Positions 18,350-56,874 of a DNA stretch of 64,000 nucleotides are shown here, in pieces; within the stretch, counting starts at the first letter, position 1; the number at the start of each line of letters is the position of its first letter. The DNA comes from Bacteroidota bacterium (GTDB lineage Bacteria > Bacteroidota > Bacteroidia > Bacteroidales > Paludibacteraceae): contig JAFNAS010000012.1 of NCBI GenBank assembly GCA_017860295.1, positions 62,001 through 126,000 on the forward strand. The letters run 5' to 3'. Both the position numbers and the translations under genes were made by a program. The notes under the pieces are model-generated. The model was not told where the DNA came from, did not search any database, and was given only the letters and a program-made list of their open reading frames with translations.

Positions 18350-19276
18350 TTAGTGAGTGCTTTCCAATTTGACTTGTATCCATCCTTTAATAGGTTTCCC
18401 CATTTCGGAAGAAGTCGATTTTGAACCGGATGTACTTTGATCCATTCCACCACCGAGGCCACCCATTCCACCGCCGGGGCCACCCATTCCACCACCAGGG
18501 CCACCCATTCCACCGCCGGGGCCACCCATTCCACCGCCAGGGCCACCCATTCCACCGCCGGGGCCACCCATTCCACCGCCAGAGCCACTTTGCATTCCTT
18601 GTGGTAAAGAAAACTCGGAAAGTAATCCGATGCTGAGTAATCCTGTTGCGGAATTCTTAAGATTAAATATCGAATAAGGTAATTTGATGTTGTAGCAAAT
18701 TTTATGATTGGAAGTGGTAGTCAGCTTTACCCATTCAATACCAACGGCTCTTGAATCTCCATCAATGTCAAACAAAGCTCCTTTCAGATTGATTTGCTGT
18801 ACCTGTTGTGTGGGATCGGGACGTCTCGGCCCTCTGGACTGATTCTGATCGTCTTGTCCTTGTCCTCCTTGGTTTGGCTGTATTTGTGGTTGATCCATGG
18901 AAGGCGTAAGACCTCCTGGCCCGCTTTGCTGACGCAATGACATCAAAGAGGGGAAAATGACGGCATATCTGTCTTTCCCTTTTCCTGTAGGATCGATATA
19001 AACGGTTAGACCGTTGAATAGTAATTTTTGTTGCGTAGGATCATCGGTCGCAACCAACTGAATGTAAAAGCCGGTCGCATTGTTAAATGCTCGGATAAGC
19101 ATTTTATCGTTGGCAAACGACATAAACAGAGTGGAACTGTCTGGAGTTGCTACTGTTGTGAAATCGGGACAAAATTGGCTTTGAGTCTCCAGTTTGATTT
19201 TTGCATGAGCAAACAACGGAAAGCTACAGGCTAATGCGATGCATGCCAATTTTTGTAGGTGATGTTTTGTCTTCAT
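18350..19276 (-). CDS. Secreted protein with C-terminal GGMGGPG heptapeptide repeats
   Basis: Signal peptide MKTKHHLQKLACIALACSFPLFAHA; Gly/Met/Pro repeat near C-terminus. Confidence 0.8.
   Translation of the reverse strand: MKTKHHLQKLACIALACSFPLFAHAKIKLETQSQFCPDFTTVATPDSSTLFMSFANDKMLIRAFNNATGFYIQLVATDDPTQQKLLFNGLTVYIDPTGKGKDRYAVIFPSLMSLRQQSGPGGLTPSMDQPQIQPNQGGQGQDDQNQSRGPRRPDPTQQVQQINLKGALFDIDGDSRAVGIEWVKLTTTSNHKICYNIKLPYSIFNLKNSATGLLSIGLLSEFSLPQGMQSGSGGGMGGPGGGMGGPGGGMGGPGGGMGGPGGGMGGPGGGMGGLGGGMDQSTSGSKSTSSEMGKPIKGWIQVKLESTH
18445..18587. repeat. 21-bp in-frame tandem repeat (about 7 copies) encoding (GGMGGPG)n
   Basis: GGGCCACCCATTCCACCGCC(G/A) repeated with third-position variation. 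Confidence 0.93.
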
Positions 19277-55538: not shown

Positions 55539-56285
55539 TTACTTCTTCACTTCCTCTGTCTTGGCTTTGGCCACGCCGGCACGGTGTGCCAGGGTGTCGG
55601 CATAGTACTTGCGACCGCCGTTGATCAGAGCCAGTGTTTTGGCAAACTGCTCTGTTTTGTGGGCGTTGGCCATCGACACCAGGTAGTCGAGGGCTTCGCC
55701 GTAGTAGTCGAGCAACTCTTTCCGTGCCTTTTTGTTGTTGATGCTGTAGGCCAATGATTCGGTCGTGCTTCGGTCGCCGAAATGTGCTTTGAACGTTTCG
55801 TTCGCGCTCTTCATCCGGCTTACATATTTCCCGTTGTTGGTGGCGCTCACTTTGCTGCTGTATTCACTACTTTCGAGGGCAGCTACCAGTTTGTCCATTG
55901 CCAGTGTTTCGGCCTCGTAAGGCAGATCGGCAATGTCTTTGTACGTATTCAGTAAAATTGAGAGACTTTTGGCCGCAGCCGCTTCTTCTTCGTTGTCGGA
56001 GTCGAGCGACAGGCGGATGGCTTTGCCGAAAGTGGCAAGCGATTTGTCGCGTGTAGAGTCGTCATCTTCGAGTAGCTCCGTTCTTTCGTCTTTTTGTGTC
56101 TTCATCAATCCCTGTGTGAACGTTACGTTTTGGGTAAACAGCACGGTCAGGTAGTTTTTCAACGGAGGGTCGGTGATAAGAGCCGGATCGAGCGACCCGA
56201 TGTCTTGTTGATGACGGTTGATTAACTGTCCTACTTCGAGGAGGGTGAGGTTCGAAACCTTCAGCGATTCCAGTGTGTAATTCAT
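55539..56285 (-). CDS. DUF6261 family protein
   Basis: MNYTLESLKVSNLTLLEVGQLINRHQQDI...YGEALDYLVSMANAHKTEQ. Confidence 0.72.
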   Translation of the reverse strand: MNYTLESLKVSNLTLLEVGQLINRHQQDIGSLDPALITDPPLKNYLTVLFTQNVTFTQGLMKTQKDERTELLEDDDSTRDKSLATFGKAIRLSLDSDNEEEAAAAKSLSILLNTYKDIADLPYEAETLAMDKLVAALESSEYSSKVSATNNGKYVSRMKSANETFKAHFGDRSTTESLAYSINNKKARKELLDYYGEALDYLVSMANAHKTEQFAKTLALINGGRKYYADTLAHRAGVAKAKTEEVKK

Positions 56286-56350
56286 AAAATGAAATTTTAA
56301 GCAGTTATTATTACAATGCACTTTATTCGATTCAAGTCGGATTTACCCTG

Positions 56351-56532
56351 CCGCCCGGCGGTCGTTCGGAACTGGCGCCGGTTCTGCTTTGCCGCCCGGC
56401 GGCAAGGCAGAACCCGAGGGGATTCTGGCTGACCGCCCGGCGGTCGGGTAGCCCGGGTGTGGGTTCTGGTCTGCCGCCCGGCGGCAGGGTAAAACCCGAT
56501 CCGGTTCTGTGCTGCCGCCCGGCGGCAGCACA
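56351..56532. repeat. Array of five GC-rich hairpins with 41-bp period
   Basis: CCGCCCGGCGG cores centred at 56356, 56397, 56438, 56479, 56520. Confidence 0.9.
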
Positions 56533-56603
56533 GACGGATCTTTTGCTCTGGTTATTGTCTGGTAAAAAAAACTGTTGCGACGCAAGCATCCGCGATGCAG
56601 GCA

Positions 56604-56623
56604 GGGAGACTCTCCAGTCTCCC
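56604..56623. repeat. Perfect hairpin GGGAGACT-CTCC-AGTCTCCC
   Basis: 8-bp arms, preceded by GCATC-CGC-GATGC (56586-56598). Confidence 0.8.
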
Positions 56624-56874
56624 TTACGCTGCTATCGAATATCTTGGTTAGTAGTGAAGAATTTGGTAAACGAACGGCGCCTCTTTTTCGTTTATTTGCG
56701 TCAATGAGTGTCCGTTTGTTTATTTATCGAGTGCAAATATAATATATTTTTCATAAATACATCAAATTGTCAGAAAAAAAAGTTTTGGTCTGTTTTGCGG
56801 CAGGGGAATCGTATTGTGAAATGGGGCAGAGAGGCTTATCCTGATTACTGTTTTTTGTTTTGAAATAGAAGCCT

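Follow-up and report, generated by a model that had tools for sequence, protein, structure and literature searches.

Most DUF6261 genes have, upstream of the coding sequence, a row of mirror-symmetric sites spaced 41 or 42 bp apart, i.e., by four turns of the DNA helix, a rule that has so far gone undescribed. This link, which holds across the family, is the main fact to come out of the analysis, and it was invisible to the original prediction, which had dealt with a single array in one stretch of DNA. Genes and arrays are best read as a family of self-linked systems, each pairing a protein with an array and orthogonal to the others. A literature search found no paper describing the DUF6261 family, the sole match being an unrelated mention.

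A Five-Unit Array Lies Upstream of a DUF6261 Gene

The window, i.e., the whole stretch of 64,000 nucleotides that was analyzed (C21:62001-126000), belongs to a genome of 3.39 Mb whose nearest named relatives are Paludibacter MAGs. Five copies of CCGCCCGGCGG are found on the + strand of the window, starting at 56351, 56392, 56433, 56474, and 56515, with a spacing of exactly 41 bp, so that all five of the hairpin cores originally predicted were recovered in the expected register. The array as a whole (array 1; 56337-56533) consists of five dyad-symmetric units, which have no strand of their own. Their cores lie at 56351-56361 (center 56356; unit 1, the closest to the DUF6261 gene), 56392-56402 (center 56397; unit 2), 56433-56443 (center 56438; unit 3), 56474-56484 (center 56479; unit 4), and 56515-56525 (center 56520; unit 5). 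Each unit is almost entirely palindromic (GGTTCTGnYCTG-CCGCCSGGCGG-CAGRnCAGAACC), with a 6-bp linker in addition. In shuffled versions of the window, the mean number of CCGCCCGGCGG-type sites with no more than one mismatch was 0.24, and the maximum was 2. The extended arms claimed for copies 2 and 5 are present, and the GC content of the array does contrast strongly with its surroundings (up to 0.73 versus about 0.5). A peptide repeat, which the original prediction had already dismissed, is ruled out because 41 is not a multiple of three.

The gene next to the array (55539-56285 on the minus strand) encodes a predicted all-α protein of 248 amino acids, the inferred cognate protein of array 1, which matches the Pfam family PF19775 (DUF6261) with E = 2e-29 and 102.7 bits (gathering cut-off 27). 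Its start codon, at 56285, and the nearest core are 65 bp apart, the distance originally given. The other neighbor of the array is a gene for an iron-sulfur, QueG-like protein.

The consensus of the −7 box of Bacteroidetes promoters is TANNTTTG. A match to it, TATATTTG, lies at 56734-56741 on the minus strand and is preceded, at a distance of about 20 bp, by TTTGATG. As a candidate promoter recognized by its consensus, it would place array 1 inside the transcribed leader of the DUF6261 gene. Between this candidate promoter and the array, at 56600-56625, there is also an inverted repeat (GGGAGACTGGAGAGTCTCCC) with a T-run, possibly an attenuator.

The original prediction would have failed if the array were an artefact of assembly. 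This is unlikely, because a second array of five cores, with the same spacing and different linkers, is present on another contig (C15:111661-111835).

Arrays Accompany Most DUF6261 Genes Sampled across the Phylum

We drew DUF6261 loci from the 45 positive genomes among 392 in the order. Tandem Repeats Finder (TRF) detected a repeat upstream of the gene in 96 of 135 regions, with a period of 40-43 or 83 in 92 of those; downstream of the gene a repeat was detected in only 9 of 138 regions, four of them with a period of 41-43. A more sensitive chain scan, with its cut-off at the 99% level of shuffled sequence, found an array in 111 of the 134 usable upstream regions from Bacteroidota genomes (112/135 in the raw count, from which one locus, L088, was dropped because of a run of N). 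As a control, 534 other genes in the same genome were scanned, and 7 had such an array. The loci are not phylogenetically independent, since many of them share genomes, and the start codons are predicted; the effect sizes, however, are large.

Among 548 spacings within the upstream arrays, 508 were either 41 bp (308) or 42 bp (200), whereas control period ranges gave 8 and 4. Autocorrelation of the upstream regions yielded z = 28 at lag 41 and z = 23.6 at lag 42, and the signal at these lags persisted, with z of about 10, in the loci where TRF had detected nothing. Homologues in the same genus, a paralogue on contig C11 of the window's genome, and homologues across the order all have an upstream array of equal period and different sequence. 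In other families, and in other classes of the phylum as well, many DUF6261 genes have an array upstream; named records with arrays include Prevotella nigrescens NZ_CP082843.1, QKHT01000015.1, and QKIO01000164.1. A congener without a match to the DUF6261 protein of the window contained no array with a period of 39-44 in 400 kb. DUF6261 had no match in phages by tblastn against INPHARED, and none was confirmed among viral contigs; the single plasmid match, from Prevotella nigrescens, has an array upstream as well.

Arrays with the Same Core Occur at a Few Other Sites

The genome of the window contains only ten exact copies of the core, five in array 1 and five in the second array, which lies between genes for a TonB-type receptor and a DUF2461 protein (L011:7516-7915). 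Because no tandem pair of CCGCCNGGCGG was found in sixty relatives, seven of them of the same genus, this core sequence is specific to the lineage. A survey of 861 kb of the genome revealed seven arrays with periods of 41-43 bp, two of which are linked to DUF6261 genes, while two, on C15 and C4, share their core with an array that accompanies a DUF6261 gene at another place. The array on C4 (G000:C4:119802-120110; L196/L197), of 42-bp period, has the core of the DUF6261 gene on C11 (ATTGTAGG..TACAAT) and the same C-rich linkers, and lies between glycosidase-like and sialate-esterase-like genes.

In another genome, G231, arrays with CTACA or CTGCA motifs occur at six more places where DUF6261 is absent within the flanks examined. 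A pair of neighboring blocks precedes a large open reading frame of 1849 amino acids; one array lies in the gap following an open reading frame of 809 amino acids, one where the ends of two genes converge, and one behind a QueG-like gene; a further one occupies the gap that separates a pair of galactokinase-like genes (these names being our own reading of the translations). In the last case an entire seven-unit, DUF6261-linked array together with its flanks has been duplicated, over 408 bp with 91% identity (L268 47900-48450 and L266 104000-104600). Dispersal of arrays with a common core is nevertheless a low-copy affair, amounting to two arrays in the genome of the window and about seven loci in G231.

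This pattern could mean that the arrays are copied repeats of the REP/BIME kind, and that DUF6261 is needed for their spread as RAYT is for that of REPs. As in a REPtron, each gene has a palindromic repeat family of its own, with copies in intergenic regions distant from any DUF6261 gene, and the duplicated 408-bp segment is also what copying would produce. Indeed, REP/RAYT provides the closest known pattern of dispersal. However, RAYT genes carry inverted REPs on both sides (PMC2817692), whereas the arrays detected by TRF lie upstream (92/135) rather than downstream (9/138) of DUF6261. A handful of arrays, rather than 100 or more copies, were seen; their strict 41/42-bp phasing and 10-bp periodic conservation are foreign to REPs, and covariation of paired bases is absent. 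DUF6261 has neither a match to the Y1/HUH transposase domain (Y1_Tnp, PF01797) nor such a fold. The genome of the window does contain Y1_Tnp (RAYT-like) genes (L026-L028; G000:C25:61412-62960 and C1:262297), one of them with internal stops; the array core is not found at them, since no exact core exists outside the two arrays. We therefore reject identity with RAYT/REP, for which both the protein and the placement are wrong, and regard a REPtron-like role of DUF6261 as unlikely. Of the hairpin-array mobile sequence suggested in the original prediction, the dispersal of same-core arrays within the genome was borne out; a link to a mobility enzyme and a match to a catalogued REP family were not found.

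Several other repeats were noted. A 42-bp palindromic array (CCCGAA..) at G000:C1:20034-20215 (L176) lies upstream of a gene for a coiled-coil protein of 104 amino acids (C1:20334) and could represent a second array-linked family; no similar 41-42-bp array family could be established among homologues of this protein, and in the flank of one of them (L239) a 21-bp repeat array (TTTCCTTAAAGTCAAGGAATG) occurs near the gene instead. Tandem palindromic repeats of 21 bp, half the DUF6261 period, with a super-period of 42 bp are present at G000:C11:65940-66117 (L203) and G000:C1:265149-265351 (L188). Within the window, a 21-bp repeat (CCATTCCACCGCCGGGGCCAC) occurs seven times at 18442-18588 and is probably coding.

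Conservation Follows the Helical Repeat of DNA

When 103 arrays were compared, base conservation had its peaks 3-6 and 13-16 bp away from the dyad, with dips at 0, 10, and 20 bp. The most common distance between the first dyad axis and the second is 20.5-21 bp, and dyads often alternate at that interval. The family also shares a half-site signature, with A at 7-8 bp outward from the dyad and T depleted. In a power spectrum of column conservation, calculated without dyad alignment, four cycles per unit (10.25 bp) gave z = 13.8, compared with 1.9 for three cycles and −0.5 for five. A single conserved anchor block is excluded as the cause, because so sharp a four-cycle peak cannot arise from one block.

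The original prediction had interpreted the flanks as showing selection for pairing. In array 1, pairing within the same unit was not significantly higher than pairing across units (p = 0.175), and over the 103 arrays covariation between units of the bases paired about the dyad was absent (gain −0.03, t = −0.68). Nor was there a preference for G-T over A-C in dyads on the sense strand (299 versus 372). Taken with conservation at the helical period, the lack of covariation and of a G-T excess argues for double-stranded DNA read by a protein on one face, rather than for RNA hairpins. These results, together with the 41/42-bp spacing and the dyads, give good support to the one-face protein-binding array that was among the three options first proposed.

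A different possibility is that the leader array gives rise to RNAs of about 41 nucleotides, or to hairpins, which are bound by DUF6261, with the orphan arrays acting as targets or extra guides (as in TIGR-Tas or CRISPR). The predicted fold of array RNA is very stable (z = −8.5 and −10.3), and, in addition to the sense promoter motif upstream of array 1, TANNTTTG motifs upstream of arrays in general are more frequent in the sense (51) than in the antisense orientation (27). In TIGR arrays, which work with Nop-domain proteins, a unit measures 36 nt and includes two variable spacers of 9 nt; some of these arrays are palindromic (PMC12045711). Like them, the DUF6261 arrays have short dyad-containing units, similar in length, beside one compact gene, and their unit sequences vary between loci. 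The resemblance is superficial: the units are 41-42 bp long and show four conserved blocks at the helical period of DNA rather than two repeats and two variable spacers. The fold of the protein is also different, there being no Nop family match in a Pfam scan of 38 DUF6261 members and no PDB fold match for two structural models. We thus reject TIGR-Tas, for want of fold resemblance and because four conservation cycles per unit do not fit its anatomy. Rfam gave no significant covariance-model match in the window between 55000 and 58000. Despite its impressive folding energies, an RNA hairpin array is rejected on the negative tests for within-unit covariation and G-T bias, and an RNA-based system of any such kind appears improbable. 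Of the RNA leader first suggested, the position may be right, in view of the TANNTTTG motif upstream of the array; selection for RNA hairpins found no support.

Array Sequences Are Specific to Individual DUF6261 Genes

Two arrays can be recognized as similar only where protein identity exceeds about 80%; at less than 60% they are mostly unrelated. Whether the spacing is 41 or 42 bp nevertheless goes with the relatedness of the proteins in the range of 25-60% identity (p = 0.01-0.045 per bin). The four DUF6261 genes in the genome of the window have four different cores. In G231, two paralogues are 90% identical, and the linkers of their arrays are unrelated; one array has CTACA-N3-TGTAG in 7/7 units and the other CTGCA-N3-TGCAG in most units. 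One symmetric base pair has thus changed throughout an array without homogenization of the linkers, a pattern that points to selection on each individual site. In two close orthologues (L030 and L031), a linker motif, AGAAATCTTTTC, is common to both loci in opposite orientation relative to the gene.

Two AlphaFold models of DUF6261 (pLDDT 92 and 94) predict a long all-α protein with nine helices. Foldseek searches of the PDB with both models found no resemblance, a search of BFVD with the first model gave no match, and a sequence search of the PDB revealed no relative. R79 is invariant in the family, and D76, D80, N162, R172, and R188 are nearly so. Three results count against DUF6261 as the binder: no DNA-binding domain was detected in the Pfam scan of 38 members or the fold searches; no protein column was coupled to a half-site base above the null in protein/array pairs; and the mean net charge is −2.5 (median pI about 6), unusual for a DNA binder; of the three, this charge speaks most strongly against simple DNA binding.

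It might therefore be supposed that a separate, conserved DNA-binding protein occupies the arrays and that DUF6261 is merely the gene it regulates. The near-neutral charge of DUF6261 and its lack of a DNA-binding motif would fit, and the converging geometry of the arrays could reflect one general binder. Yet DUF6261 is the only locus-specific protein gene seen beside the arrays, and a general binder would need many specificities, because the cores of paralogues differ within one cell. We consequently give this proposal little credence.

Discussion

The explanation that we favor, while leaving ample room for doubt, is that the arrays are helically phased binding sites on double-stranded DNA, cognate to the adjacent DUF6261 gene, with DUF6261 itself as the most likely binder, acting on its own gene and on targets in trans. 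Each dyad would be occupied by the DUF6261 product in the form of a symmetric dimer or oligomer; with dyad centers every 20.5-21 bp, units of 41-42 bp, and four conserved blocks per unit, an ordered row of protein would form along one face of the DNA. Possession of its own core by each DUF6261 would prevent cross-talk between paralogues of one genome. From the array near the start codon DUF6261 would control its own expression, and arrays with the same core elsewhere would be further targets, serving either regulation or the gathering and organizing of chromosome regions. A pure operator role seems ill-suited, because one orphan array sits between convergent gene ends. Direct binding, autoregulation, and a role of the orphan arrays are what we infer from these associations, and the binder could instead be a partner protein of DUF6261.

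The closest known architecture is the parS/sopC centromere of the F plasmid, in which twelve 43-bp repeats with dyad motifs are bound by SopB, a ParB protein (PMC6238139). Both are tandem dyad arrays of similar period with the linked gene adjacent, binding by DUF6261 being our presumption. Unlike sopC, the DUF6261 arrays are chromosomal, lie upstream of the gene, and belong to multiple paralogues with a core each. Neither a ParB family match nor a ParA/ParB-like protein was found among the neighbors of array 1, and the fold of DUF6261 is unrelated by Pfam and Foldseek.

Replication iterons are usually direct repeats of about 20-22 bp for one Rep protein. As with iterons and tandem operators, helically phased sites here are repeated upstream of the gene for their (presumed) binder; unlike iterons, DUF6261 is a multi-gene family in which cores change rapidly and the geometry is constant. 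For sopC, REP/RAYT, and TIGR-Tas alike, one or more of the defining features were tested for and not found here. More tentatively, and with the balance of our own judgment slightly against it, DUF6261 proteins may constitute a new class of all-helical array binders without a PDB match, in which each gene has its own address, rapidly changing in sequence and fixed in geometry, that links its locus to other arrays bearing the same address.

DUF6261, an unannotated family, thereby becomes a testable system, with a presumed target beside every gene. If DUF6261 binds the arrays, these would provide hundreds of natural protein-site pairs of equal geometry and different sequence in which to study how a DNA-recognition code evolves, and could serve as chromosome tethers or orthogonal repressors in Bacteroidota. 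Should a partner be the binder, an array tied to one gene family across a phylum, conserved in geometry and divergent in sequence, would still need explaining.
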